Source: Alphaproteobacteria bacterium PA2 (GTDB lineage Bacteria > Pseudomonadota > Alphaproteobacteria > Caulobacterales > Caulobacteraceae). Taken from it: a DNA stretch of 64,000 bases. Location of the stretch: the NCBI GenBank assembly GCA_002256425.1, contig NKIZ01000001.1, positions 3,383,001-3,447,000 of the forward strand, written 5' to 3'. Below the pieces are notes generated by a model. It saw nothing but the letters and a program-made list of their open reading frames with translations, did not search any database and was not told where the DNA came from. A program made the translations under genes and the position numbers. The first letter of the stretch is position 1; every line of letters begins with the position of its first letter. Below are positions 2,546-18,901 of this stretch, one piece after another.

Positions 2546-5500
2546 CTAGTCTTCCTTGTCGTCCTTGCCGCAAACCTTGTCTTTGGCTGCCAGCAGGTTG
2601 CCAAAGCGGCCATAGTTGACCTTCACCCCGTCGTCGAGGTCGAGCTCAATCCGTTGATCGGCAAGGTGCCGCAATTCCTCGTCAAATACACGCAGTTCGG
2701 ACACTTGTTTGAGCAGTTTGTCCTTCTCTCGCGTCTTACGGGTCTTTTCAGCTGACGAGGCGGACACCGCAATCTCGGCATCCAGATCGTCTACGCGCTG
2801 CTGAAGTTTGCCCATCAACGGCGTGACATAGACCGTGCGCATTCTGGCCAAAGTGCCTTCGTTGTAGCGGTGGAGATAGACCAGCGCCTCGAACGCCTTC
2901 TGCTTGCCCGAGGAAAAGAGCCAGTAGATCGGACGGTTCTTGTAGGTCTGAAGGTGATCTTTGTAGAACTGCTTTGAGAGGTAGGAACGCAGTGCCGCAC
3001 GTGGCTCACCCGCCTTGTCCTTGGAGAGACCATTCATCAGCGTGAACATCGTTTCCGTGACTGGCGCTTTTGGCCAAGCTGCACAAAGGAACTCCTCGAT
3101 CCGCACGGCAGCATCGTCGCCAAACCACTGCTCCTCCGTCAGCGGGATTATGCCGTCGTCGTCGGCGGGAAACGGACCATAGCGTGACGGATCGAAGCCT
3201 ATACCTCCGGAATGGGCATAGATCAGGCCCGGTTCAGCCAGCGAGTAGCGGCCCATCATGCAGCCGAAAGCATATGAAATTATGTCAAATTCTGTTGTGG
3301 TTTCTCGTTCAAAATTCTCAACTCTATATCCATTACTATCTACACTTTGATGAAAATATCTACTGATATAATCAACTACAGATTTATCGATTTGTTTTTG
3401 TAATCTTCTTATAGATAATATGTTATTTTCATATTGAAGGTTGCTAAAGTTAATATATTCATCAATCGTTTTTGATTCAGATTGAAATATATTGATGCCT
3501 CTATATTCTATTGATAACTCTATGCCATCCCAATCGTCTTTTGCCGCATTGATAGCATCATTCGCCCAAAAGCTCATTTTATCAATAAGGTCGTCGGGGC
3601 ACAAAGGAAGGTCGTCGAACTCACTGTTAAAATCTGTGCCAGGACTCATAAGTTGGATGGCGTCTGATACAACAGATGAATTTAAGAAGGCAAGATTCGC
3701 CTTCAAATTATTAAGGGATGAAAATGGCACGAGCATCGCAGATGTATCGAATATTAGACCTTCAGGATTATACCTAAAACCAATACGCTTTCCGCTAGAT
3801 CTAACTCTAGACCACGTAACGCCCTCTCTAAAATAGAGAGACCTATTTCTTATTACAAATTCCGGATCAGAAATATTTCTATACTTATTTCTAACAAGAT
3901 CGAGCAATTGCGATCCATTGTCTTTGTAATTTACAACATGAATAACATTTCCATACCACTTTCTAGGCGCTCCTCCCTTATTATAGAGGAACCATGACTT
4001 TTTTGGGTCGGATGTAGATATTTGGGAGATGGCATCGCGGGCAATTTCCCACCAGTATCGCAGAAATCTAGGATTATCTGTCGTAGACATTCCCTGCTTG
4101 GCAGTGGCGACAGAGCGCATTTTGTTCGGAAGTTTAAGAATTAAGCCAGCACTTATAGGTGCTGATGGTTCGATAATATTGTTCGGGAGTTCGAGAAATT
4201 CTCTTTGAAATCGATCAAATCGGTCAATGTATTTATTCCCATTTTCGGAATCTGAACCAGCCAATATAATAGATTTTCCTCCAAAATTTGAACCAGACAA
4301 GACAATCGCACACGCTCTTACCGAGAATGCGCCTGATCCAATTTTCCAGACCGAATTTATCGACTCATTATTCAGAATTTCAAATCTCAATGAAGATAAG
4401 CTGGGTAGATAAAGAAGCTCTTCCTTTACAACAAAACTTGAAATACCGTTTCGTTTTCTAAGATTCGACCCTCTTCTAATAAACATTGCATAAGTGTCTA
4501 TTTTTGCTTCTGGGTAGTAGCGCACAGCAAAATTTTCATAAAGCTTTGGAACGCCCGTTACACCACGCCCTCCCAAGTAAGGCGGGTTTCCTACCACACA
4601 ATCGTAGCTATCACCCAGCAAACGGGCCTGTTCGACCAACGGCTTTAACAGCTCCTGCGCATCCTCCTGCGCCCGTCGCAGCAGCAAATCACCCGTGAGC
4701 GGCTTTGCTAGTAGCGCATCCAGCAAAGGCAAACTCTGCATCACTTTGTCTGGAACCGTGATCAGCGATCCAAAGGTCTTTGCACCTTCAAACAGCGTGA
4801 CCAGCGCCTTGATTGCACTTGCTTCGGCTGAGGTCGGCTGTTTCGCAGCAAGGGTGGGCTGGCGCAGCGTTTCAGGCAGAAGATCGCCGCTCGGGACCAA
4901 TTCAAAACGCTCGTGAGGCAACAGCGCGCTAGCCAGCGCATCTGCATCAAGCGCCTCGGCCTCTTGCAAGGCCAGAACATTCAGCGTGGGAGGATTACGC
5001 AGCACCGAACGATCATCGGCACAGGCTTTCATCAGCAGAGCAAACCCGGCCATCTGTGCCGCACGATCATCGATATCGAGACCGAACAGGTTCTTGGTCA
5101 GGATCGCGCGGGCAGCTTCGCGCTTGGTGTAGCCCCGCTCCAGATAGATTGACCGGAACAGGTCATAGGCTTCGACCAGAATATGGCCTGACCCAACTGC
5201 TGGATCGATCAATGTGATGGCTTCGAGATCAAGCTGCTTTGGTGTGATCGCATCGATCTGAGCTTTGACCTCTGGCGTCTGTTCCGCCGGAGCAATGTAA
5301 TACTCCATGCCAGCGCGAATGCCGCTGTCGGGATAGGTCGCCAGCCACTGCGCCCCGAGGCTGTTCTGGACCATATATTTCACGATCCAGTTGGGCGTGA
5401 AAAGTTGGGTGGCAGCAGGGATATCTCCCGACTTCACCACCTTGCCCATCACCTGATCCTTCTTCTCCGAGATGTAGAACTGGTAGAGCCAGCCTATGAT

Positions 5501-6121
5501 TTCGACCTCGTCCCATTCAGGCTCCGCGATGCTGTTGACCAGCTTGCGGATGATGCTGTCCGTCTGGAGCAGGTTTTCTGGGAGCAGGAGTTCGGTTTCA
5601 TCGTCGATGCGCTCGAAGAGAAATGGCATAGCTTTGTGCAGGTCGTTGCACTGGCCGATCAGGATGCGGCGATAGAGGACCTCATCCTTGTCGCCCGCGA
5701 GCTTGAGCTCGACGACAACCTTTTGGTCTAGGCCAGGCAGGCTTAAGTGCTGTGCCTGCTGTAAGATCTCCGGCTCCCGTTCACCGCGTGGATGGCTGAG
5801 CACCCGGTAGCCGTGGTCAAAATAGCCATGCAATTCGATATAGCGGATGGCCAGGAAACGATTGAACCAGGTATAAGCCACAGCCTCCATGACATCGTCA
5901 AAGGAGGTGACTTCGATGCGCGCGAGCAATTTCCTGCGCTGTGCAGCCACGACCTTGGGAAACGCCTTGCCGCCAATAAGGAAGAGGTCGCCGCGCTCTT
6001 CCCCCGGTGTGAAACCTTCCTTGGTGACACCGAACAACGCGGCTCGGTCGGTCATTGCGCGAATAAAATCCTTCCGCGCCTGAGGAGCATAGGTCTTCAG
6101 GGCGTTGCGATTAGCGACCAT
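2546..6121 (-). CDS. pglX: PglX/BrxX, BREX adenine-specific DNA methyltransferase
   Basis: 1,191 residues, the usual size for type I BREX PglX. It carries FTPNWIVKYMVQNSLG, SAM-binding motif I DPAVGSGH at residues 306-313 and catalytic motif IV NPPY at 512-515, as in N6-adenine methyltransferases. PglX marks host DNA at a short asymmetric site so that BREX blocks unmarked phage DNA. The DNA encoding roughly residues 519-960 is strikingly AT-rich, whereas both flanks are GC-rich. This middle part starts just after motif IV, where the target-recognition region is expected. No frameshift was seen. It lies 15 bases after brxC and 5 bases before pglZ in the same operon. Confidence 0.96.
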   Translation of the reverse strand: MVANRNALKTYAPQARKDFIRAMTDRAALFGVTKEGFTPGEERGDLFLIGGKAFPKVVAAQRRKLLARIEVTSFDDVMEAVAYTWFNRFLAIRYIELHGYFDHGYRVLSHPRGEREPEILQQAQHLSLPGLDQKVVVELKLAGDKDEVLYRRILIGQCNDLHKAMPFLFERIDDETELLLPENLLQTDSIIRKLVNSIAEPEWDEVEIIGWLYQFYISEKKDQVMGKVVKSGDIPAATQLFTPNWIVKYMVQNSLGAQWLATYPDSGIRAGMEYYIAPAEQTPEVKAQIDAITPKQLDLEAITLIDPAVGSGHILVEAYDLFRSIYLERGYTKREAARAILTKNLFGLDIDDRAAQMAGFALLMKACADDRSVLRNPPTLNVLALQEAEALDADALASALLPHERFELVPSGDLLPETLRQPTLAAKQPTSAEASAIKALVTLFEGAKTFGSLITVPDKVMQSLPLLDALLAKPLTGDLLLRRAQEDAQELLKPLVEQARLLGDSYDCVVGNPPYLGGRGVTGVPKLYENFAVRYYPEAKIDTYAMFIRRGSNLRKRNGISSFVVKEELLYLPSLSSLRFEILNNESINSVWKIGSGAFSVRACAIVLSGSNFGGKSIILAGSDSENGNKYIDRFDRFQREFLELPNNIIEPSAPISAGLILKLPNKMRSVATAKQGMSTTDNPRFLRYWWEIARDAISQISTSDPKKSWFLYNKGGAPRKWYGNVIHVVNYKDNGSQLLDLVRNKYRNISDPEFVIRNRSLYFREGVTWSRVRSSGKRIGFRYNPEGLIFDTSAMLVPFSSLNNLKANLAFLNSSVVSDAIQLMSPGTDFNSEFDDLPLCPDDLIDKMSFWANDAINAAKDDWDGIELSIEYRGINIFQSESKTIDEYINFSNLQYENNILSIRRLQKQIDKSVVDYISRYFHQSVDSNGYRVENFERETTTEFDIISYAFGCMMGRYSLAEPGLIYAHSGGIGFDPSRYGPFPADDDGIIPLTEEQWFGDDAAVRIEEFLCAAWPKAPVTETMFTLMNGLSKDKAGEPRAALRSYLSKQFYKDHLQTYKNRPIYWLFSSGKQKAFEALVYLHRYNEGTLARMRTVYVTPLMGKLQQRVDDLDAEIAVSASSAEKTRKTREKDKLLKQVSELRVFDEELRHLADQRIELDLDDGVKVNYGRFGNLLAAKDKVCGKDDKED

Positions 6122-6136
6122 TGATAGGTGATCCTG

Positions 6137-9100
6137 CTACAGAATTTCGATTCGAGCGTTGGCGGCCAGGGCCTCTTCGAGCTTTTGGCGAAGTGCGGAA
6201 AGGTAAGTTTCCACATCGTCCCTGCTCTCAAGATAGGCCTTTGAGCCCATCAGGGTGCGAGCCGTAACCTGCTGTCGCTGTCGGAACTTCTCGGGCGTCG
6301 CAATGCGCGGTGGCGCAATGTAAGGCATCGCGGGCCCCTCTTGAGGACCGGGATGATCTGCCTTTTCTGTCGGAGCTGCCGACCCTGGCTTTGCTGCCGC
6401 CTTTGCTCGGGCACTTGAGACGGCGCGTTCGATCATAAGCCGTGCATTGTCTTCTGCTTCAGCTGCGGCCTTAACTAGGTCGGCAATCTGACCAGTAAGG
6501 ATCTGATCAAGAATATCCCGGCGGATACTTTGAAGTGGCAGAAGGCATTGATTGGAAAAATCCGCATCGACGCCGATATCCGCAAGATCGGCCTTCACTG
6601 CTGCAATGCGAGGGTCAACCAGGGCCAGAGCTTCGGCTCGCCTCTCAATCAAGACAACCTCGTTTCGGGCTTTGAGCAGATCGATCAGCCCACCGCTTTC
6701 TTTGATCCTCGGATAGGGGCTTTCCGCGGCGAGAATTGCAGCGACATTGTCGAGCGCTTTGGCCGCATCAGAATCCTTTCGCAGATGGAATGCGTTGGGA
6801 AGGAATCGGTCCCGATAGGCTCTCCGCAATGCGTCCCACTGAGTACGCTGTTGCGTGAAAAAGGTGGACTGCTGCTGAAACCGTTCATCCTGCTCCACCA
6901 GGTCGGCGCGATCCGTCTGTAGTTGGTTGATCAGAGCGAAGCTGTCTTTATGGGCGAGGAGTTTCCGCGTGACACCCAAGAGGTCGGCGATCTCACCCTT
7001 CCCCGGATAGTCGCCCGTGCCGGCTAAAGCCGCCCATTCGTTCAACTGCCTAAGACGGTCATCAAAACGGTCTCGAATAAAGGCTGCCAAGTCATCTTCA
7101 GACTCCGGCGGGGTCTTGCCGAATAGGTCACGCGCAAGTGTGCGGACAGCTTGAAGTGCGGACCTGTCCACAGTCTGGCGCCTGGAAACACTGACACGGT
7201 TCCACTTGGTAGTTCCGTCAATCTGACCAAAAACTTCTGCGACCGCGAGCTTGCCGCCATTGGCATGAAGCTCGATTTGACCGGCCTTAAGAAGCCGACA
7301 GACCAAAAGGAGCGTATCGAATTCCCGCCATCCGTAGGGGTGCCGGGCAAACCGATCATTGATCATCGCCCCCAAGTTCAGCGTCTGGCTGCGCCCGCTC
7401 AGAAGTTCGACATAGTCGAGCACTTCTTTGAGGGCGCGAGCGTTCTGGCTTCCGCCCGTTAAGTCCAGTTCCTCACCATTGGGGTCGGACAAAACCTTAC
7501 GGATCTCAACGATTGGGTCGCTGGAGGAATGCTGGATATAGCCAAGCTTGTTGTAGGAATTCTCCACTAGGTAGTTCAGGGCGGCATCAACCGCAGCCTT
7601 CGGCGCGCCTGAGAACGTCTTTTCCTTGCCGATAACGTAGAACTTCGCCGTTTCCAGCATGTCCGACAAAGTGGCGTGAATGCGTTGGCGGCGTTGGGTG
7701 TTTTCAGAGCGCTTGTCATCAAAGATCCGCTTTATCGTTGGGGTCACAGATCCGTCGGATCTTTGACGGAGGTAGGCCTCAGTCTTGATCAAGGTAGTGA
7801 TCTCGTCTGCGAGCTTTTTGTCATCCCGCAGTTTGATGAAAACCTGGCCCACAGAGCCATCCATGCTCTGCTGCACACAACGCGGCTCATTGAAATCGCC
7901 GTAGTCGGACGCCAGGGGCGTAAGGACCGAAAGCGGAAGCGCACCCTCAATACGGTTGCCGATGGGCGCGAGATCGATGATCCGTAGGATATCGAAGTCC
8001 TTGTTGTTGACGCTGTAGCGGTACTTGCGCAGGTCTTTCAGGACATCTTCGAATATGACCTCCCCAAGCAGCCGAAGCCGTTCGCTCTCGACATACTCTT
8101 GGGTCTTAATCTCCTTGTTGATGTCGCGCTCTTCGTTGGTCAGAAAGAAATAGAGATCGCCGTTTCGGCTGATCAAGGTCTCCCTTTCCAGTCTTAGAAG
8201 GCTCTGCTCGATCTCCGCGCGAATGGCTCTTTTGTCGGCGTCCACTTCGTCGACAAAGAAGGTAACCAGATTGTCGATATTGCCCGGGACCTCATCAATA
8301 TACCTGATTAAAAACAAGGTCTTGAGAACGCGGCTGTCAAAATCTGTGGCGTCAGCAATGTTTTGTACGCGGCTGATGGCGACACGCACGACGCCTTCTA
8401 GGAAACTCTCTATTGAGGGGTAGAAGGCGTCTAGCGTCACTAGGGCGCCCAGGGGACGCTCCTTGATGGCAAGCGCTGCAGTCTGGAAGGCGTCGAGCAT
8501 GGAGCGCTCGCCCTTGGAAAGGTGCCCGCCTGCCGCGCCGAATTTGCGGCTCGCCTCGAACATCTTCTGTACCAATAGGAATTGGTACGGGGGGAAGGGG
8601 TAGCAGGTTGCGAAGTTCTTCCCGTCAGCGAAGCCTCGCAAGGTCATGCCCGCGTCTCGGAACGTTATCTGGTTCTTGAGAATGTCACCCTTGGCTGCGA
8701 ACAGCGTTTCGAGCTCAGTGACGGCGTCGGAGGTTTTGGCCAGAAGCCGGCGCTGAATTACTTCATCGGCGTTGGATCCCGACAGGGAAAGCCGGGTAGA
8801 GAACCGCCCTTGGATTTTCGAGAAATCATTTTCCCGGGCATTCTCGAACGAAGCGCCGACGACGGCGTCCATATCTTCCTGGGATGTCACGACCACCCAA
8901 GCGCGGCCTTTGCAGATGGTGCCCAGCTCCTCGGTGACGGTCTGAAGGTTGAGCATCAGTTGGGATTGGCCGCCTATAAACTGGCCCACTTCGTCGACCA
9001 AGAAGACCAGGCGCTGCTCAGGGTCTTTGCCGTCCAGGTACTGCTTCACCCACTTGGCAAAATTCTCGATCGTCAGGCTCAGGCCCTTCTCGAGGTTATC

Positions 9101-9805
9101 GATCCAGGCTTGAAGGCTGTCGACCGGCTGTCCAAGCACGCCGCCCAAAGCGGCAGCGATTTCGGCCGTATGGAAATGATAGGAGTCCCGTTCCTCATTC
9201 CAGTTCAGACCGTAGCCAACCTCTAGAGCCTGTTTGAATGCCTCGTACTTTCCTTTCTCGTCGAGGAACCGCTCCATATGGGCCACCTCGGGATGGTCAC
9301 CGCTGAAGCCGCAGTGTTCGTTGAACACCCTGAGGAAGACCCGCAAAATCGGATCGCGGTTGTGATTTTGTTCTGCCTTACTGTCGATATTGAAAAGGAT
9401 GACCTCGGTCTTCGCAGCCGCCAGTTTTCGTAGGTCCCCAGCGAACGCAGAGTCGCCAGAAACTTTTTGAAGGAAAAAATCGAGCGGCGTTCTTTCCTCT
9501 TTGCCGTCACTGACGGGTTGGTTGGCAAGGAGGTAAGAAAGGATCTTGATTAGGTGGGATTTGCCCGACCCAAAGAACCCCGAAACCCAAACTGCCATTT
9601 GCGCAGCGACGCTCGGATCATTGCCGCGGGCCAGGCCCGAAAGGTAGGCGTCCACAAATTTGCGGAGGTGCTTATCGACTTCCTTGGTGATTACATACTC
9701 ATCGAGTTCATTGAACGCCTGATCACTCTGGTCCGCCTTGATGACGCCGTTGATCGGTCTCTGGATGTCCTTCGCGAAGGCGTCCTGCAATTTCATATCG
9801 GTCAA
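6137..9805 (-). CDS. brxC: BrxC, BREX P-loop ATPase
   Basis: 1,222 residues, matching the large BrxC/PglY-type ATPases. Walker A is GFFGSGKS at residues 76-83 (Lys82). Walker B is LVFLVDEVGQF with Asp271-Glu272. The C-terminal 250 residues are rich in Glu, Arg, Ala and Lys and probably helical or coiled. BrxC is essential in studied BREX systems and is thought to use ATP in assembling or moving the complex on DNA; its exact action is not established. Its ATG overlaps the brxB stop (ATGA), which implies coupled translation, and pglX follows after 15 bases. Confidence 0.96.
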   Translation of the reverse strand: MTDMKLQDAFAKDIQRPINGVIKADQSDQAFNELDEYVITKEVDKHLRKFVDAYLSGLARGNDPSVAAQMAVWVSGFFGSGKSHLIKILSYLLANQPVSDGKEERTPLDFFLQKVSGDSAFAGDLRKLAAAKTEVILFNIDSKAEQNHNRDPILRVFLRVFNEHCGFSGDHPEVAHMERFLDEKGKYEAFKQALEVGYGLNWNEERDSYHFHTAEIAAALGGVLGQPVDSLQAWIDNLEKGLSLTIENFAKWVKQYLDGKDPEQRLVFLVDEVGQFIGGQSQLMLNLQTVTEELGTICKGRAWVVVTSQEDMDAVVGASFENARENDFSKIQGRFSTRLSLSGSNADEVIQRRLLAKTSDAVTELETLFAAKGDILKNQITFRDAGMTLRGFADGKNFATCYPFPPYQFLLVQKMFEASRKFGAAGGHLSKGERSMLDAFQTAALAIKERPLGALVTLDAFYPSIESFLEGVVRVAISRVQNIADATDFDSRVLKTLFLIRYIDEVPGNIDNLVTFFVDEVDADKRAIRAEIEQSLLRLERETLISRNGDLYFFLTNEERDINKEIKTQEYVESERLRLLGEVIFEDVLKDLRKYRYSVNNKDFDILRIIDLAPIGNRIEGALPLSVLTPLASDYGDFNEPRCVQQSMDGSVGQVFIKLRDDKKLADEITTLIKTEAYLRQRSDGSVTPTIKRIFDDKRSENTQRRQRIHATLSDMLETAKFYVIGKEKTFSGAPKAAVDAALNYLVENSYNKLGYIQHSSSDPIVEIRKVLSDPNGEELDLTGGSQNARALKEVLDYVELLSGRSQTLNLGAMINDRFARHPYGWREFDTLLLVCRLLKAGQIELHANGGKLAVAEVFGQIDGTTKWNRVSVSRRQTVDRSALQAVRTLARDLFGKTPPESEDDLAAFIRDRFDDRLRQLNEWAALAGTGDYPGKGEIADLLGVTRKLLAHKDSFALINQLQTDRADLVEQDERFQQQSTFFTQQRTQWDALRRAYRDRFLPNAFHLRKDSDAAKALDNVAAILAAESPYPRIKESGGLIDLLKARNEVVLIERRAEALALVDPRIAAVKADLADIGVDADFSNQCLLPLQSIRRDILDQILTGQIADLVKAAAEAEDNARLMIERAVSSARAKAAAKPGSAAPTEKADHPGPQEGPAMPYIAPPRIATPEKFRQRQQVTARTLMGSKAYLESRDDVETYLSALRQKLEEALAANARIEIL

Positions 9806-10371
9806 TCCACAAGTCTGAAGGCGCGATAGTATGGCGTTTCCTGCAATTCACCAAAGAGCTGCAGAGTCTGACCATTAAACCGTCCGGGGAAAAATAGGAC
9901 GACAGGCGTGGTCCCGATTAGCGGTTGTAAGTTGTTCAGGAGGCTATGAGTGCGGACAAATGGGTAAGCTGCGCCGACACCTGTTAGCAGGATTGTATCG
10001 GGCTTTTCAGCTTGCACCCTCTCCATCAGCGTATGCGCAAGTTTCCCCGCTTCAAGTGGCCCTTTGAGAGCACTTAGGAGCGCGGGCGCGCCCTTTGCCG
10101 TCTCCAATGCAATGGCCTTTTCGTACAATCGGCGCGATCGCAGGACCTCTACGACGAGGGCAAACAAATTGACGTTGGTGACCTTTAGGCTTGTCTTGCG
10201 GTCAAGATCTTCCGCGAGCCATGACACGTAAGCATCGACTTGAGGTTCGTCGCCTGGCGCATAGTCGAAGGCGTAGAATGGCACTTCGTTTCCCAGACCT
10301 TTTCCGGTCAGAAAGTCATCAGACGTAATTCTCCCCCGGATCTGATCGAGGCGCACTTTCAGGTCGGTCAT
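9802..10371 (-). CDS. brxB: BrxB, BREX protein (DUF1788 family)
   Basis: 189 residues. It matches the BrxB/DUF1788 pattern: an N-terminal LDQIRGRITSDDFLTGKGLG and a C-terminal VVLFFPGRFNGQTLQLFGEL followed by YYRAFRL. No catalytic motif is visible, and BrxB has no settled biochemical role although it is a core type I BREX component. It overlaps brxA upstream and brxC downstream by four bases each (ATGA), so the three small-to-large genes are translated as a block. The size and position in the operon are those expected for type I BREX. Confidence 0.94.
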   Translation of the reverse strand: MTDLKVRLDQIRGRITSDDFLTGKGLGNEVPFYAFDYAPGDEPQVDAYVSWLAEDLDRKTSLKVTNVNLFALVVEVLRSRRLYEKAIALETAKGAPALLSALKGPLEAGKLAHTLMERVQAEKPDTILLTGVGAAYPFVRTHSLLNNLQPLIGTTPVVLFFPGRFNGQTLQLFGELQETPYYRAFRLVD

Positions 10372-10961
10372 ATGAAAGCCTGCATGGCGCGCAGGATTTC
10401 TGAAAATCCGCCCTTATTCAATTCAGCAATGACCTCGGGTTGATAGTACACCGGCTGAAGCATGGGTCGGTCGGCATCCGAAAGCATCCCGATCTCCAAT
10501 AGTATTTGAAATGTCGAATCGCCGAGCTTTTCAGCTGTTGAAGTCGACCAGACCGGCATCATTGGGTCTCGCTCACGGCATCCATCTAAATAGGCCCGCC
10601 AATGGCTACGGGTAAGTGACAGGTTGCCAGAGCGAAAGTGGTCGCGGACCTCCAGTTTAAGAAAATCCAGAAGGAGCGGACTATGGACGAGAGCGGCCGC
10701 AAATACGGCTTGGGTTGCGGCTGGCTTTGAGCCATCTCGGACAAGCCCCAACAGATCCGGCGTCAATGTTACAAGCCTGGCTCGAATAAGACTGGCCTGC
10801 CGTTTTGCTGTTCCTGGAGACTTCTTTTGAAGGACGTTTTCAACCTCAATCGCGTTGCGCCATTCAGCTGCGCTGGCGTTATTCAGCAGTAGGCTGGCAA
10901 CTATCCGGGACTCGTAGACTTTCAAGGCGCCGCCTGCGATGTCGGCCTTATAGCTAGGCAT
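10368..10961 (-). CDS. brxA: BrxA, BREX protein (DUF1819 family)
   Basis: 197 residues from ATG at 10961, which shares one base with the hipA-like stop (TGATG). A GTG one codon upstream (10964) is possible. The sequence begins MPSYKADIAGGALKVYESRIVA and has the DUF1819/BrxA pattern, including HFRSGNLSLTRSHWRAYLDG. BrxA is a small mainly helical protein reported to bind DNA; its precise part in BREX is unresolved. Direct overlap with the HipA-like gene ahead and brxB behind places the HipBA pair and the BREX genes in one transcript. Confidence 0.94.
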   Translation of the reverse strand: MPSYKADIAGGALKVYESRIVASLLLNNASAAEWRNAIEVENVLQKKSPGTAKRQASLIRARLVTLTPDLLGLVRDGSKPAATQAVFAAALVHSPLLLDFLKLEVRDHFRSGNLSLTRSHWRAYLDGCRERDPMMPVWSTSTAEKLGDSTFQILLEIGMLSDADRPMLQPVYYQPEVIAELNKGGFSEILRAMQAFI

Positions 10962-12187
10962 CACCTCGTTCCCGCGAGCGGAAGGGTGTCAATTTGCCGA
11001 TTTATTATGTCGGAGATTTCGGCGTGGAGTGGAAGGTGCCTCCGCTCGTTGGCCCAAGCTTCTCGGAACCGCGAAACTGTCTCGCGGGCAACGCCGATAA
11101 CTAGCCTTTCTGGAAGACCTGCCTTGGCAGCAAGGTGGGTGAGCTCGTCTTCGTTGAAGCCGTCCCAACGGGCGGTGCGGCTGAACTTAAGGGCCGCCTT
11201 ATCATCTGGAATGTAGGCCAGCGTAGAGACGAAGTCATAGGCTGGCGACAGGCTGGGAGTGACACTGTCAGCATAGAGCAGCGACCAGTTTTTAAGGTGC
11301 ATGTCGGCGTTGCCAATCATTGCATTGAAAACCAGACGGCGGATGAATTCGGTGATCCCAGCCTCTCCGATTTCCAACCAAAGTACCTTGGCAATCGACC
11401 GATAGGTGGCATGCTTGTATTTGTCGTCGGGATAGACTCCAAAGACCTGAGCGAAGTCCTCCATGTGGATACGCTCGCCATCGGCGGTCCGGTCGAAGCG
11501 GCGGACGGCGTAGGCCGCGCCTTCTAGCTTTCCGATTCCATCTGGAAGGCCGGCGATTTGATCAAGCTCGACGAGCTGAATGTCAGGCACATCGATGCCC
11601 ACAGACTTCGCCAGGGTCATCATCGAGATCTCGTTCTCGGACACGCCGCGAAAGCGGGTTGATGGCAGCTTGACGATCCAGGACCCGCCGACACCGGTCG
11701 CTGGAATTGTCAGGCCTCCCTGTGCTTTCTCCAGCGCGGAAAACTTCAGCTGCACACCAGCAAGTGAAAACCGCAGCGGGACTTCGGCTGGTTCTGACCC
11801 AGCGGGAAGGGGATCCTCTTCATGGGCCGGCCCCGGCTCTTCCCCATCTGGCCCCCTGGCGATGACAGCTCCAGGCAAGTCGCGCCCCAGCGCCCACAAT
11901 AGATAGAATTCCCGGACCACGTTTACGCCGGCCCTTTCGGCCAGGTAGTCCCGCAAGGGACCTTCCGGCAAGAGGTTCGAAAAGAACGGTGACAATCGCG
12001 TTTGGGTTCGCCGTTGATCCCGGATCAAGTCGCCCATGGCGTCCTTGAACGACAGGCTCAAGGTTGGCCTGTTGGGGTCATCTGCGTAGGCATCATCGAA
12101 GGTGAAGACTGTACGGTCGCCACCTAGCCCGTTGATCGTGCCGACCTTTCGGTCGGCAAGAAAGATGTCGAGGATGTCTGCGGCCAC
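10961..12187 (-). CDS. hipA: HipA-like serine/threonine kinase at the head of the BREX operon
   Basis: 408 residues from GTG at 12187, three bases after the upstream HTH gene. The HipA pattern is clear: an N-terminal small domain with DRKVGTI and LSPFFSNLLPEG, then SLAGVQLKFS, the GVGGSWIVKLPS segment (ATP/phosphate-binding region) and NADMHLKNWSLLY around residues 290-302 with the catalytic Asp. HipA toxins phosphorylate a translation target (GltX in E. coli) and are neutralised by HipB, which also represses the operon. The stop overlaps the brxA start, so this kinase is translationally coupled to BREX. Whether it acts as a toxin, a regulator or a BREX effector cannot be told from sequence. 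Confidence 0.9.
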   Translation of the reverse strand: MAADILDIFLADRKVGTINGLGGDRTVFTFDDAYADDPNRPTLSLSFKDAMGDLIRDQRRTQTRLSPFFSNLLPEGPLRDYLAERAGVNVVREFYLLWALGRDLPGAVIARGPDGEEPGPAHEEDPLPAGSEPAEVPLRFSLAGVQLKFSALEKAQGGLTIPATGVGGSWIVKLPSTRFRGVSENEISMMTLAKSVGIDVPDIQLVELDQIAGLPDGIGKLEGAAYAVRRFDRTADGERIHMEDFAQVFGVYPDDKYKHATYRSIAKVLWLEIGEAGITEFIRRLVFNAMIGNADMHLKNWSLLYADSVTPSLSPAYDFVSTLAYIPDDKAALKFSRTARWDGFNEDELTHLAAKAGLPERLVIGVARETVSRFREAWANERRHLPLHAEISDIINRQIDTLPLAGTR

Positions 12188-12190
12188 GGC

Positions 12191-12772
12191 CTAGTCCTCC
12201 TCGTCAAGGCTATAGGCGGGGGTCTGCACAGGTGCGCGAGCATGGACAAGCCCGTTACGGATTTTGGCCAGGCCGTGGATCGCGGCTTCGAGATCCTTCA
12301 GGTTGTCGTCTGCGCTTTCCCCGGCGCGTCGGATAACCGTGACCGCGTTTTCCAACTCGCCCAAAGCTCCGGGCGTCTGGAACAAGGGGGCGATAGCGAT
12401 CACGTCCTGGATCAACGTGGCAAGGCGCTCCGTCATACTACTCTTGGGGTGCTCAATGCGCAGACGCCTTAGCGTCGGCTGAAGTGAGTTGACCAAGCCG
12501 CGCGCGGACCTCAGATCTTGGTTGGCTTCAGCCTCGCGGATCAAAGCCTCAACGGCCGGGATTGAGGATCGCGGCGCAAGCAAGAGCTCTAGGTCCAGTA
12601 AGCGTGCAAGCTCCACCAATGTTGAGACCTTCACGTCAACCGAGCCGCTTTCGATGCGCGAGATATGCGCCTGGGGAATTCGAGCCTTCCCGCTGAGGTC
12701 ACGTTGAGACCAACCTTTGTTGAGGCGAGCTTGGCGAAGGCTTTGCGCAAAGGCTTCTGCCTGATAGCTCAT
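12191..12772 (-). CDS. HipB-like XRE-family regulator/antitoxin
   Basis: 193 residues, with an N-terminal XRE helix-turn-helix (SQRDLSGKARIPQAHISRIESG, residues about 22-43) followed by VKVSTLVELARLLDLELLLAP, as in HipB/HigA-type antitoxins. Classical HipB is about 90 residues; here about 110 extra residues follow, mostly predicted helical, so it is an extended relative. It is the first gene of the HipA-BREX operon and is probably its repressor: two sets of inverted repeats sharing a GCATCA half-site lie upstream (12785-12876). No WYL-type BrxR regulator is visible, so this protein may take that place. That is inference. Confidence 0.85.
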   Translation of the reverse strand: MSYQAEAFAQSLRQARLNKGWSQRDLSGKARIPQAHISRIESGSVDVKVSTLVELARLLDLELLLAPRSSIPAVEALIREAEANQDLRSARGLVNSLQPTLRRLRIEHPKSSMTERLATLIQDVIAIAPLFQTPGALGELENAVTVIRRAGESADDNLKDLEAAIHGLAKIRNGLVHARAPVQTPAYSLDEED

Positions 12773-12899: not shown

Positions 12900-13859
12900 T
12901 CAGATTCGTATACGTTCGATCTCATCAAGGCTGACCTGATCGGAGCGCCGATCATAGAGCTGTGTGGTGCGAGTGGAGGCGTGATTTGCCATAGCGGCTG
13001 CATTTTCCAGCGTACCGCCGTTCTTCAAATAAGCCGTAATGCCCGTAGCGCGAAATGTGTGGTTGCCGATCTTAGTGGCGATGCCCGATGCACAGGCCCG
13101 ACGCCCTATCATGGCATAGGCGTTCGACTGTGGGAGAGGTCTCGAGCTAAGCGCCGACCTACCCCGTTCAATCGTACGAAATAGTGGCCCTTTAGGATCA
13201 CGCCGCAGGTCGCAGCCGTCGAGATAGGCGTCCAGAAATGTCTCGAGCGAATGGTGGCAAGGCATCTCGTGACGCTTGCCGCCCTTTTCGTGGAGGCGAA
13301 CCCAGAGCCGACGGTTCTGCACAAAGACGTCTTCAACCTTCATTCCCAAGGCGGCGCCAATGCGTGCAAAGCTGAACACCATCAAGCTAATCAGCGCCCG
13401 GTCACGCAGACCGACCGGGGTCGATATGTCGATCGCATCAAGGAGATGCCGAGCCTCTGCCGGATCGAGCACCGGTGTTTTTCCCCGGCGGACGCTATGG
13501 GATGGTCCGCGCACTGAAGCGGCTGGATTCAGCGGAACGACCTGACCCATCACCAGCCAGTCGAAGAGATGGCGGATCGCTGCCAAGTGCTGCTTTGACG
13601 TTGGCGAAGATCTGGAAAGGCTTAGAGCCTCTATGTAGGCGCCCACATGGAGCGGTTGGACGTCAGTGACCGAGGCCACCCCCCTGCCCTCGCACCAAGC
13701 CAGGAAATCGACCACGGCGCGGGCATAGGCCCGGCGCGTGTTGGCGTTTCTGATGGTCGTGGCGAAGAATTCGAGAAATCGGATTTGAGCGCGCTCGCCG
13801 GCAGCCGCGACTATCGACGGTAGGTTTTGAAATCTAACGGGCTGGACGAGCCGCTTCAT
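12900..13859 (-). CDS. Tyrosine recombinase/integrase (XerC/D-like)
   Basis: 319 residues with an N-terminal SAM-like core-binding domain (about 25-110) and a C-terminal catalytic domain. Visible catalytic residues are Arg166 in FARIGAALGM, Lys195, His267-x-x-Arg270 in HTFRATG, His293 in NHAST and Tyr302 in TQLYDRR, so the set appears complete. It breaks and rejoins DNA by a tyrosine-linked intermediate. Its ATG overlaps the stop of the small upstream gene (ATGA). It lies between the ubiquitin-like operon and BREX, away from any tRNA seen, so it may belong to a nested element or an orphan recombinase carried with the defence genes. Confidence 0.92.
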   Translation of the reverse strand: MKRLVQPVRFQNLPSIVAAAGERAQIRFLEFFATTIRNANTRRAYARAVVDFLAWCEGRGVASVTDVQPLHVGAYIEALSLSRSSPTSKQHLAAIRHLFDWLVMGQVVPLNPAASVRGPSHSVRRGKTPVLDPAEARHLLDAIDISTPVGLRDRALISLMVFSFARIGAALGMKVEDVFVQNRRLWVRLHEKGGKRHEMPCHHSLETFLDAYLDGCDLRRDPKGPLFRTIERGRSALSSRPLPQSNAYAMIGRRACASGIATKIGNHTFRATGITAYLKNGGTLENAAAMANHASTRTTQLYDRRSDQVSLDEIERIRI

Positions 13860-14327: not shown

Positions 14328-15695
14328 CTACCGGGCACCGTGATCGCCCCACAGCGACTGAATAATCGGCTCGAATTCGGGCTTCGAGCAAAACTGGCAA
14401 TCTGGGTGTCGGGGCCGCAGCGTGCGGGATCGGGCGATCGGCAGGTTCCATGGATCGACTGACCAGTAGTTAGTCGTGGTGATATCGGCGAAGCACCGCA
14501 GCATCTCCACCACCATCAGGATGCCCGCCCAGGCTGAGACGAAGGCGAAGGGCGCAAGAACCTGACGGCCTTCGGGGGTTGCCAGGGCCTGCTCCGAGCA
14601 GAGCTGACGGAACAAGCTGTCAAACGCTAGGTTGACGATGGCCGACGCGTCGATACTGGGGTGCGTCTGCGCGATCCTGCGCGCAACGCCTTCGGTGATG
14701 AGACCGCTCCGAACGTCGGCCAGGTCGACGCCCAGGCCTTCGGCGATTGAGCGCTCCCGGGCTTGCTCCTCCGGCACGTGGCGGTAGATGCAGGCGAGGC
14801 AGGCATGATCGGTGGGCAGGGTATTCGAGTGCACTATCACGCCGCGGACGTCGGTGGTGGATGCGTCGATGATCCGCCGGGGCGCCTCCAGCTGTATGGC
14901 GCGGCGGACGAGGCGGCTGTCGACCGTGACGAAGACCGTCTCAGGCGGTCGGCCGAGGATGCGGACGAACGCTTTGAAATCTTCTACGCGTGGAAGAAGG
15001 GTGAGCCCCTGGAGGTCGAGTTGGGCGCGCTCCGCCAGGGCCACTGCCTTGTCGCGGTCGATGTCGTCCTCGACCAGATATAGACAGCGGTTCAGCACCC
15101 CGCCCTGGACCACCTTGGGATCGACAATCGACAGCTCACCACGGACGTCGAGATGTCGAATGGCGCGCAGGAAGCCATGCGCCACGGCCCCAGCGCCAGC
15201 CATGACGGCCGACCCAAGAACGAGTGGACGGTCAAGGGCACCGTCTGGAACCCCGAGCTGAGCATAGTCTAGGCGCATAGGCAGGCGGGCCTGGGGCAGT
15301 GCCTGATCCTCGATCACCGCATGGACCGTGGCCGCGGCGGCGGCGCACGCGGCGGCGGCGGCGTATAGCGGATGAGGTTGGGTGTTTAGGAGCCTGACAG
15401 CATCCTGGCCGAGGATGGCTCGCGTGGCGTCAAGGTCAACGAAAAGCTGTTTAGCGGCCGTGCGGGGCTCAGCTCCGCCGACGACCACCTCCAGGTCGGG
15501 CAGGGCTTCCCCCAGGTCAAATTCCGTCTGGACGGTGCGGCCGACTAGCTCGCCAATGTCGCGCGCCCAAGCGGTCTTCCATCCCACCTCGGCCGTGATG
15601 AGAACGACGCGCTTGAGACGTTCTCCTGCCTCGCCCTCGCCCACCCCGAGTATGGAAGCGAGCATTAGTGCGTTTTGCTGTGCAGCCGCACTCAT
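14328..15695 (-). CDS. E1-like (ThiF/MoeB superfamily) adenylating enzyme
   Basis: 455 residues from ATG at 15695, which overlaps the peptidase stop (ATGA); a longer frame exists but is not needed. Residues 1-150 are an uncharacterised N-terminal region. From about 155 there is a Rossmann-type adenylation fold: a Gly-rich GAGAVAHG loop (167-174), Asp192 in SIVDP, and Asn202-Arg203 in VLNRCLY, as in ThiF/MoeB/E1 proteins. Two Cys pairs, CLAC at 299-302 and CQFC at 433-436, form the typical zinc knuckle. The enzyme would adenylate the Gly-rich end of the ubiquitin-like protein and pass it on as a thioester. The thioester Cys is not certain. It is the last gene of the four-gene operon. Confidence 0.88.
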   Translation of the reverse strand: MSAAAQQNALMLASILGVGEGEAGERLKRVVLITAEVGWKTAWARDIGELVGRTVQTEFDLGEALPDLEVVVGGAEPRTAAKQLFVDLDATRAILGQDAVRLLNTQPHPLYAAAAACAAAAATVHAVIEDQALPQARLPMRLDYAQLGVPDGALDRPLVLGSAVMAGAGAVAHGFLRAIRHLDVRGELSIVDPKVVQGGVLNRCLYLVEDDIDRDKAVALAERAQLDLQGLTLLPRVEDFKAFVRILGRPPETVFVTVDSRLVRRAIQLEAPRRIIDASTTDVRGVIVHSNTLPTDHACLACIYRHVPEEQARERSIAEGLGVDLADVRSGLITEGVARRIAQTHPSIDASAIVNLAFDSLFRQLCSEQALATPEGRQVLAPFAFVSAWAGILMVVEMLRCFADITTTNYWSVDPWNLPIARSRTLRPRHPDCQFCSKPEFEPIIQSLWGDHGAR

Positions 15696-16162
15696 CAAGC
15701 AATCCTGATCTGGGCTTCGAGGCCGAAGTTCGGGTGGTGACGCCATTCACCGTCGGGCGTGTAGGCGTAGGTCATCACCTCATTGAGGAAGGTCTCCTGG
15801 GTCGTCGTGGCCGCGAAGCGGGGCAGAACCAGGGATAGAGCCCCCACGTGGCGGACGATGGCCCATTCGGCGTCGACTTCGGAGTGGAAGGCGCGGCCAG
15901 GATGGGTGTGGATTTGCGCGACGATCCGACGTCGGGTCGATCGAAGATGATCCATCAGGGCCCGCATCGATTCCGGTGGAAGTCGGAAATAATCGATCGC
16001 CGCTATCTGCGCCGGCTCATAGACCTCTACGATCGGCGTCGGCGACCGCTGCGCTGCGGTCGACAGCCAGAGTGCGACCCGCTCCTCCTGCCGCAGCCCG
16101 CCGCGCCGGAGGACGTCAATGGTCTCGCGTAGCAAGGTGGGTGACAGGACAATGGCGGTCAT
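15695..16162 (-). CDS. JAMM/JAB (Mov34/MPN) metallopeptidase
   Basis: 155 residues. The JAMM zinc site is intact: His85-x-His87-Pro, then Ser94 and Asp97 (IHTHPGRAFHSEVD), with a Glu at 26 or 27 as the general base. In ubiquitin systems such enzymes cut after the Gly-Gly of ubiquitin. Here a likely job is maturing the polyprotein tail, which ends Gly-Gly-Gly-Gly-Ala, and/or removing conjugates. The gene overlaps the E2-like gene upstream by four bases and the E1-like gene downstream (ATGA). Family assignment is firm; the substrate is inferred from the operon. Confidence 0.92.
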   Translation of the reverse strand: MTAIVLSPTLLRETIDVLRRGGLRQEERVALWLSTAAQRSPTPIVEVYEPAQIAAIDYFRLPPESMRALMDHLRSTRRRIVAQIHTHPGRAFHSEVDAEWAIVRHVGALSLVLPRFAATTTQETFLNEVMTYAYTPDGEWRHHPNFGLEAQIRIA

Positions 16163-16617
16163 CTAACGGCTCTCTTCCAGGCGCGCCACAACTGCAGAAC
16201 GATCCCTCCGAGGTCTAGGCCGGATTGTCCCCGGTAGTTGTCCCAAAGGTCGGTGAGGTGGCTGGTGTGGGTGTGATATTCGCGGGCACCGCGCATGCAC
16301 ACAAACGGGCGGCCGGTATTGTCGTGCGGCCCTGGATGGAAGACGCTGCCGACGTGCGGCGGCGGCGCCGTAAGATGCTTCCCGCTGGCGTCCATGATCT
16401 CGATCGCCGGCGGGAGTTCGTCCCAATCCTTGCAGGTCAGACGCAACCTAAGCGCCGCAGCGCTCTTGTGCCGAAAAATGACATCGAAGATCGGGAAGCG
16501 CGCCTCGACAATCTCCCAATCATAGAGCTTGACGGCGCGTGGGTCGATCTGGCCCACATCGCGGTCAAAGGCGGCGCGGGAGAGGGCTTCAAGCACCGCC
16601 GCCCCCTTCACGCGCAC
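16159..16617 (-). CDS. E2-like (prokaryotic UBC-fold) conjugating protein
   Basis: Up to 152 residues. GTG starts exist at 16617, 16611 and 16596; the last has the best-placed AGGGGG and overlaps the polyprotein stop as GTGCTTGA, so the true start may be 16596. The sequence matches the UBC pattern: a basic strand RLRLTCKDW, FHPGPHDNTGRPFVCM with candidate catalytic Cys107, then LTDLWDNYRG and LGGIVLQLWRAW, like the final helices of an E2. A His-rich YHTHTSH follows the Cys. E2 enzymes receive the modifier from E1 on the Cys and transfer it to targets. Identification relies on motif order and on E1, JAB and ubiquitin-like neighbours. Confidence 0.8.
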   Translation of the reverse strand: MRVKGAAVLEALSRAAFDRDVGQIDPRAVKLYDWEIVEARFPIFDVIFRHKSAAALRLRLTCKDWDELPPAIEIMDASGKHLTAPPPHVGSVFHPGPHDNTGRPFVCMRGAREYHTHTSHLTDLWDNYRGQSGLDLGGIVLQLWRAWKRAVR

Positions 16618-17290
16618 CCCATTCGAGCACCACCTCGCCGGCGAGGCAAGCCTGGGCCAAGGTGAGGTTAACGTCCACGTCCGTGCCGCCGACCGTGACG
16701 ATCCAGGTGTCCGTATCGGTGATCTTCAGCTTGCGCTTGGCGTCGGCCAGGATCTCGCTGATCAACGCGGACGCAGGATAACGCTTGAAACCTTCCGCAG
16801 GGAATGTGCCAGCTGTGGTCACGACTGTGACCAGCACCTTTTGCGCGTGGTCCGCCCTACGTGACACCACGTGTTCGACGCCTCCCGGGCCGAAGGACAG
16901 AAGGCCGCCGGGCGAAAGTACAACGTCCGGTTCATCCTCCCGCTCTAGCACCCAGTCATGGTTATTCGAGGCTGGCCAAATGGTGAGGAACTCGTCCACC
17001 TCCATGTCCTGCTCCCCCCAGACCTGCCCCACCTCGTCAATGGTGAAGCTAAAGCTACGATCCGAGGGGAAGGCGCGGAGGAAGCCTCCGGCCTGCGCCT
17101 TGAGATCGATATCGTCGTCTGTGCCGATTAGGTGGGTGCGGCCTTCGTGCGCCAGTATCAGCTGGAACTCACTGGCTGGAACGTTGCCGGATTTGGTCAG
17201 GACCTCGCGGCCCGTGACCACACGGTCGGGAAATTCTACGTCCCGGCCGTTGACCGGGAAGGTCTGGCCGCGATGGGCGAGGTCATCCAT
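16589..17290 (-). CDS. Three-unit ubiquitin-like polyprotein (multiubiquitin-type)
   Basis: 233 residues. Three consecutive beta-grasp-like units can be delimited by eye: about residues 10-75 (TFPVNGRDVEFPD to FLRAFPSD), 78-145 (SFSFTIDEVGQVWGE to VVSRRA) and 150-228 (KVLVTVVTTAGTFPAE to AGEVVLEW). Each opens with a strand pair and ends in a strand after an acidic linker. The protein ends REGGGGA, a Gly-rich tail with one extra Ala, so trimming would be needed to expose Gly-Gly for E1. It is the first gene of the operon and overlaps the E2-like gene by up to 29 bases. No internal Gly-Gly junction is obvious, so the three units probably stay linked and are attached as one tag. Confidence 0.85.
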   Translation of the reverse strand: MDDLAHRGQTFPVNGRDVEFPDRVVTGREVLTKSGNVPASEFQLILAHEGRTHLIGTDDDIDLKAQAGGFLRAFPSDRSFSFTIDEVGQVWGEQDMEVDEFLTIWPASNNHDWVLEREDEPDVVLSPGGLLSFGPGGVEHVVSRRADHAQKVLVTVVTTAGTFPAEGFKRYPASALISEILADAKRKLKITDTDTWIVTVGGTDVDVNLTLAQACLAGEVVLEWGAREGGGGA

Positions 17291-18541: not shown

Positions 18542-18901
18542 CTAAAGCGCACCGGCCGACCACCCTTCCAGCCGGACAAAATCGTGGAAGCCGCAACCGG
18601 GCGCCATACACACCACGCTCGGATGAACGTAGCCATCCGAAGCAATCGAATGGGTCCTGAGCGAGACCCCGTGTCCACCGGAACATGTCAGCTCTGCCTT
18701 GAAGACCGCCCGGGTTCGTGGATTGCAGTCCTTCCACATCATCGGCGGCGGACGCCCGGGACCTGACCAGAGATTTATTGCAACAACAGAACGCGACCAG
18801 CCAGTCGGCGGCATTGAATTGATGGGGAATCGTTCCGGGTCTAGCTTCCCTCCCCCAAGGAAGCGGCGCAGCGCACCAAATATCCATCGTAGAATTTTCA
18901 C
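18542..18901 (-). CDS. Small protein with C-terminal Cys/His cluster, unknown function
   Basis: 119 residues from GTG at 18901 with GAGGGGGA ahead. The N-terminus is hydrophobic and basic (MKILRWIFGALRRFLGGG), perhaps a membrane-associated helix. The C-terminal part carries Cys and His in a pattern like a metal-binding finger: LTCSGGHG, then PSVVCMAPGCGFHDFVRLEGW. Other frames here overlap it; this one is preferred because of the RBS and the motif. It converges with the RES gene, whose stop lies four bases away. No function can be named. Confidence 0.55.
   Translation of the reverse strand: MKILRWIFGALRRFLGGGKLDPERFPINSMPPTGWSRSVVAINLWSGPGRPPPMMWKDCNPRTRAVFKAELTCSGGHGVSLRTHSIASDGYVHPSVVCMAPGCGFHDFVRLEGWSAGAL

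Follow-up and report, generated by a model that had tools for sequence, protein, structure and literature searches.

A specificity cassette larger than the target recognition domain, very probably exchanged by recombination within pglX of a type 1 BREX operon

The centre of the pglX gene of Alphaproteobacteria bacterium PA2 is very probably a specificity cassette of foreign origin, taken up in place of the resident one through recombination in conserved flanks. The cassette appears to start just past the catalytic NPPY motif and to end at the onset of the C-terminal domain, limits that would make the reader of bases 1 to 4 (the target recognition domain, or TRD) and the base-6 loop travel as one unit. 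The SAM-binding half of the protein would stay in place, as would the domains for which contacts with other BREX proteins have been suggested. The exchange of specificity is well supported and atypical, and it lies within an ordinary BREX system; we infer that the route was homologous recombination, that activity is retained, and that the site has changed.

Coordinates refer to the window, i.e., the whole 64,000-nucleotide stretch of DNA that was analysed. It contains most of a complete type 1 BREX operon, in which brxA, brxB, brxC, pglX, pglZ, and brxL are all present. The first four were assigned by PADLOC, and pglZ and brxL by alignment with reading frames at the same place in sphingomonad loci.

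10368 to 10964, minus strand: brxA (PADLOC)
9802 to 10371, minus strand: brxB (PADLOC)
6137 to 9805, minus strand: brxC (PADLOC)
2546 to 6121, minus strand: pglX (brxX), an intact open reading frame of 1191 aa; type 1 BREX adenine methyltransferase and specificity factor; PADLOC PglX, 1206 bits
1 to 2549, minus strand: 5′ part of pglZ, which runs past the window; together with locus L002, one open frame of 882 aa
L002, 15866 to 17911, after pglZ: brxL, by alignment with sphingomonad loci
12900 to 13859, close to the BREX operon: phage-type integrase

Type 1 BREX PglX methylates a single non-palindromic 6-bp site, and BREX attacks phage DNA without the host mark at one 6-bp site. The pglX product scores 1127 bits against the NCBIfam model BREX_1_MTaseX (NF033452.1; cut-off, 500), as a type 1 BREX PglX does. 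Its NPPY motif is at residues 512 to 515 (window 4577 to 4588) and its SAM-binding motif is D306-P-A-x-G-S-G312, the named residues being invariant in 31 sequences. The pglZ protein is 69 to 70% identical to that of the sphingomonad loci L007, L008, and L009, and 67% identical to that of L034 over residues 3 to 334. GC content is about 0.56 in the operon, compared to 0.64 to 0.68 in adjoining DNA at 14.4 to 15.6 kb. Full-length pglX is absent from all 59 other relatives searched, so the operon is sporadic, as for an island; partial matches occur in 3 of the 59 (35 to 38% identity over 67 to 131 residues). Immediately upstream of brxA are genes for a HipA-like kinase and an HTH protein (10961 to 12772, minus strand), the kinase gene overlapping the start of brxA by 4 bases; this pair was not found in the roughly 1.2 kb visible upstream of brxA in L007 to L010, L034, or L049. 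A ubiquitin-like operon adjoins the island (14328 to 17290, minus strand) and encodes an E1 protein (E1-N plus ThiF), a multi-ubiquitin protein, a Metal_CEHH protein with a weak BilB match, and a JAB protein that is BilC-like in PADLOC and under the Pfam cut-off.

The block stands out in composition. GC content along pglX, in 300-base windows, falls to 0.31 to 0.43 from flanking values of 0.56 to 0.57 and comes back to 0.58, and the maximum-likelihood AT-rich block at third positions covers residues 503 to 951 (window 3269 to 4615), with a GC3 of 0.318 inside and 0.688 outside. The 2lnLR for this block is 156.6; on a 5-codon grid it is 153.5, and the highest of 500 codon permutations gives 23.8. 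The 1.3 kb poorest in GC of the entire 64-kb window also lies here (0.372 at 3252), the lowest value elsewhere being 0.475 at 18764. The compositional right edge is sharp (residues 949 to 953), and the left one is looser (496 to 526), bracketing NPPY. Protein divergence from the closest full-length homologues, those of L007 to L009, puts the left edge at residue 519 (516 to 522), four residues past NPPY, and the right edge at 949 (948 against L007). A first-pass annotation of this DNA had described an AT-rich centre of pglX between GC-rich sides, with its left edge just past NPPY. GC and codon plots agree with it on the centre (GC3 of 0.32 versus 0.69), as does the protein-level edge at residue 519 on the left limit; the right limit that it gave, 3243, lies about 30 bases too far out. 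The resulting parts of the gene are as follows.

4577 to 6121, minus strand: conserved N-terminal part, residues 1 to 515, NPPY included; 78 to 80% identical to L007 to L009
3275 to 4567, minus strand: exchanged AT-rich block, residues 519 to 949; GC 0.373
4157 to 4567, minus strand: distal half of the methyltransferase fold, a sub-block of residues 519 to 655
4316 to 4342, minus strand: base-6 loop counterpart, residues 594 to 602, aligned at the E. coli loop 587 to 601
3572 to 4156, minus strand: TRD proper, residues 656 to 850
3275 to 3571, minus strand: spacer helices, residues 851 to 949
2549 to 3268, minus strand: conserved C-terminal part, residues 952 to 1191; 85 to 88% identical to L007 to L009

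The comparison with the closest homologues carries the case for replacement. The block is 28 to 31% identical to those of the sphingomonad proteins, compared to 78 to 80% and 85 to 88% in the N- and C-terminal flanks, and nucleotide identity is 0.36 to 0.39 inside and 0.74 to 0.79 outside. Conserved flanks about a divergent centre had been anticipated for an alignment with the closest PglX proteins, and the figures (28 to 31% versus 78 to 86%) are of that kind. Since identity in brxC, pglZ, and brxL of those loci remains at 65 to 89%, the drop is confined to the pglX block. Ranking gives the clearest result: among 73 PglX proteins, a set without L034, the three sphingomonad proteins rank as the top three for both flanks and 60th, 38th, and 71st for the TRD. 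The pglX of L034, frameshifted in its assembly and with its pieces apart, has flanks 81% and 86% identical, and the block searched by itself finds no match in it; its whole-protein alignment with PglX extends to residue 599. GC3 of the block is 0.32, compared to 0.46 to 0.49 in L007 to L009, whose flanks are similar (0.63 to 0.76). The nearest TRD is that of a Lysobacteraceae MAG, L043 (45.6% over 169 residues), whose PglX is otherwise unlike the query, with 60% identity in the flanks and a base-6 loop of 15 residues.

The homologue set was drawn from the best 80 of 165 relatives; 59 were kept, and the 21 loci with no single open reading frame covering at least 1100 query residues were dropped. 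An AT-richer centre turns out to be family-wide, and composition alone is therefore no proof of recent import. Block GC3 is lower than that of the flanks in 56 of the 59 homologues (median difference, −0.15), and the difference of −0.37 in the query is matched or exceeded by 2 of the 59; among E. coli pglX genes the centre is AT-richer in 12 of 13, those blocks having a GC3 of 0.26 to 0.36. AT-richness as the sole sign of import is thus rejected, since nearly all family members examined share it. The first-pass annotation had held that homologues with the same AT-rich centre and uniform divergence along the gene would speak against replacement: such a centre is indeed general (56 of 59), but divergence is very uneven.

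We consider it improbable that there was no replacement and that the block diverged in situ, driven by strong diversifying selection and becoming AT-rich through relaxed codon selection. The family-wide lowering of block GC3 fits such a history, as does the correlation of block with flank GC3 (r = 0.83; slope, 0.70), and within the flanks themselves variability goes with slightly more AT (median, −0.066; lower than in conserved columns in 52 of 60). However, the block exceeds the variable flank columns in AT even at its better-conserved columns (median, −0.080; lower in 48 of 60), with a larger gap, −0.145, at its more variable ones (lower in 58 of 60); in the query, GC3 is 0.21 in the better-conserved and 0.33 in the more variable block columns, versus 0.65 in variable flank columns. 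A third-position shift this large would not be expected from protein-level selection, and the block edges are sharp. Trees, built from 30 of the 60 sequences, leave a common origin of the block with L007 to L009 unrejected: with the block tree held to a clade of the query and these three, p-AU is 0.844 and the held tree is the better one, on long branches. The clade of L007, L008, and L009 is likewise not rejected in block trees of these very divergent sequences, and the end branch of the query (2.97) is the longest of 30, so that likelihood trees cannot place it. Against gradual divergence stands a pair of genes from one Desulforhopalus genome, L036 and L040, which differ by 5 to 6% outside the block versus 56% inside, a contrast hard to reach gradually. 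Variability accounts for part of the low GC3 of the centre, and the rest may come from an AT-rich exchange pool or weaker codon selection.

Replacement thus remains the preferred reading, and what was replaced appears to exceed a textbook TRD. In the E. coli structure, the TRD (651 to 837) is described as reading bases 1 to 4 and a methyltransferase-domain loop (587 to 601) as reading base 6 (PMC11842806). The exchanged block maps to residues 515 to 955 of E. coli BrxX, so both reading parts fall inside the cassette. The unit would comprise the distal half of the methyltransferase, the base-6 loop, the TRD, and the spacer helices; the replacement of a specificity domain proposed at first pass is upheld by the conserved flanks and divergent centre, in a unit larger than the TRD to which it was ascribed. 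The block still matches PglX profiles, residues 513 to 655 scoring 53 bits to one of them versus 166 for the L007 counterpart. A type IIG enzyme as the source of the block was rejected, PglX profiles ranking first. The predicted structure of PglX has BrxX/PglX structures as its best matches, in a model of moderate quality (pLDDT, 74.7; pTM, 0.46).

The same kind of swap is seen among E. coli strains and in other phyla, so that this one is an unusual example of a common process. The Desulforhopalus pair has nucleotide identities of 0.95 and 0.94 outside the block and 0.44 inside, and sister status of the two blocks is rejected (p-AU, 0.0007). Desulforhopalus vacuolatus thus has two pglX genes with protein flanks 97% identical and different blocks; tblastn with the query operon proteins revealed no other BREX gene in the stretch examined at L040. 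For E. coli, 73 records matched, 14 were fetched, and 13 were used, L114 being dropped because it is annotated as frameshifted. The 26 of 78 pairs with the highest flank identity are at 0.87 to 1.00 outside the fitted block, and 25 of the 26 are at 0.45 to 0.61 inside; L104 and L106 share the same centre and differ (0.93) in the N part only.

The left edge falls at 516 to 519 in 12 of 29 homologue pairs with flank identity of >0.78, 3 of these 12 involving the query. In four further pairs it falls at the hinge (633 to 654), leaving the base-6 loop outside the block, and the other 13 spread over 384 to 577. E. coli left edges lie at 513 to 520 in 12 of 26 pairs, and the rest range from 37 to 646. 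Right edges are spread, from about 863 to 955 in homologue pairs and further out in E. coli. Because pairs share members, these counts are not independent, and because the steep loss of conservation past NPPY also pulls the fitted edge there, the left-edge clustering is suggestive and not a measured hot spot.

Several loci show other rearrangements about pglX. Copies of the 3′ end of pglX occur downstream of it in 4 of 76 loci examined (L071, L027, L037, and L044). Desulfamplus magnetovallimortis (L071, 9823 to 16716) has four further such copies, one of them shorter, each after cargo genes that include a nucleotidyltransferase/HepT pair, a PIN protein, and AAA ATPases; the arrangement suggests that the end of pglX serves as a site of insertion. 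In a Mariprofundus MAG (L084, 6004 to 13031), a break near the hinge divides pglX into two genes, one for the methyltransferase and one for the TRD and C-terminal part; between them lie three cargo genes (AlbA/RecG-like, an AAA ATPase, and a weak DUF4435 match). Six of 14 E. coli BREX loci (L102, L104, L106, L109, L110, and L113) carry an ATPase and a hypothetical gene directly 3′ of pglX, and pglZ was not seen in the stretch examined of those six.

Searches for a donor returned distant sequences. Block searches matched 266 plasmid records and 6 phage records, all at <60%, and a pattern search of viral contigs, which detects close relatives only, matched none. From the order, 398 genomes were searched, and from the class, 385, each set being a sample of a larger group and including the window's own genome; block matches occurred in 6 of the 397 and 6 of the 384 others, at 24 to 36% identity, with no close relative. 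Against plasmids, the distal methyltransferase part alone had a best listed match of 33%, and the spacer had no tblastn match at E ≤ 1; among homologues the spacer gave weak matches only. No close match to the block in another backbone was found among plasmids, phages, viral contigs, the order and class samples, or 73 PglX proteins. A source within the same genome, i.e., phase-variable switching with a silent or invertible copy, is very hard to credit. Many pglX genes are said to be phase variable (PMC11341690), and an inverted pair of 20 nt, 90% complementary, lies on either side of pglX (2029 to 2048 in pglZ and 7017 to 7036 in brxC), but it is short and imperfect and probably due to chance. 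The sole direct repeat, two 20-nt copies, lies in brxC, the single-contig genome has a single match to pglX, and there is no downstream copy of its 3′ end.

The replacing cassette is itself peculiar. Its base-6 loop of 9 residues is the shortest among 74 PglX proteins (a set without L106), a length found in no other. Eight recurrent loop types, shared across phyla, cover 71 of the 74; they were drawn up after inspection of the loops, with L113 close to type A and counted apart, and L086 odd. The loops of Escherichia fergusonii and Acinetobacter NEB 394 are identical, and both sites end in T: GCTAAT and GTAGAT, respectively (PMC12707154), the latter belonging to the NEB 394 plasmid gene (PMC9122589). 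A 15-residue loop goes with sites ending in G in E. coli HS and, by alignment, Salmonella. This pattern covers four enzymes, the Bacillus cereus, Lactobacillus casei, and Vibrio cholerae enzymes in the table of PMC12707154 being left out.

The query is off consensus at 18 of the 52 near-invariant positions in the block, the most of the 74 (median, 3; L079, 17), and at 15 of 265 such positions in its flanks (median, 6). Those 18, with the WMFLSS and GSPIAYW stretches among them, the short loop, and the longest end branch of 30 in the block tree could mean that the replacement broke the enzyme or that the block is drifting, leaving BREX inactive or partly active. This would be compatible with exchange, and we hold it to be unlikely, though a serious contender. 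Set against it are the frame of 1191 codons without a stop, the block of 37% GC included; an open pglZ; and uninterrupted reading frames for brxL and the other operon genes. NPPY is kept, 6 of 8 HS residues contacting the DNA backbone are kept, with one K changed to R and one lost or kept depending on the alignment, and the predicted fold resembles BrxX/PglX structures. Given the open frame and the intact catalytic motif, we think that this PglX is functional, with reduced activity a real alternative. The operon most likely still works, at a 6-bp site that would differ from that of its sphingomonad relatives; a changed methylation site is plausible, and both marking and the attack on phage DNA would follow it. 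As a tentative forecast from aligned residues, the site would begin with G (R758 aligns with HS R751) and would end in a base other than the G that the E. coli-type loop reads. Because BREX acts on DNA unmarked at one site, a single exchange of the reading unit would give the entire defence a new target.

The chances seem about equal for and against PglX specificity being inherited as a defined natural cassette, from NPPY to the end of the spacer (about 515 to 955 in E. coli HS). Jointly, we give the same even standing to two further parts of this idea: a smaller version starting from the hinge that leaves base-6 reading untouched, and a small set of loop types across phyla, to which the query cassette adds an extra 9-residue type. 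If so, transplanting a whole cassette at its natural joints should move specificity where loop-only hybrids failed. Such hybrids are reported to have lost defence (PMC11842806), and point mutants mostly to have broadened, rather than switched, the site (PMC11341690; PMC11842806). The recurring joints suggest cut points for PglX engineering. They come with a caution: an AT-rich pglX centre is not to be taken as a recent import, since nearly all members examined have one. The TRD is described as the most variable part of PglX (PMC11842806), and divergence within pglX between E. coli and Salmonella has been noted (PMC9009780). The PglX, BREX, and domain-exchange literature covered here consists mostly of titles and abstracts, subscription papers excluded; TRD variability and phase variation are already reported in it, and we found the exchange unit and its joints described nowhere in it.

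The known systems nearest to this PglX are E. coli HS BrxX and Salmonella PglX (PDB 9ewz and 8c45), its best PDB matches in both sequence and structure, with which it shares its whole architecture. It differs from HS in having a base-6 loop of 9 instead of 15 residues and at 4 of 5 TRD base-contact positions, R being kept at HS R751 where the alignment is weak, and its hinge and spacer motifs are off consensus. Restriction-modification methyltransferases (type I HsdS, Helicobacter pylori) undergo domain movement or TRD exchange, in which the enzyme is conserved and the DNA-reading part is exchanged. Unlike in those exchanges, the PglX unit would extend over half of the catalytic fold as well. 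Type IIL/IIG enzymes such as MmeI combine methyltransferase and TRD in one chain (PMC11341690), and the query likewise matches an MmeI-type methyltransferase profile. It is unlike MmeI in that no nuclease domain was matched in it and in that it belongs to a six-gene BREX operon.
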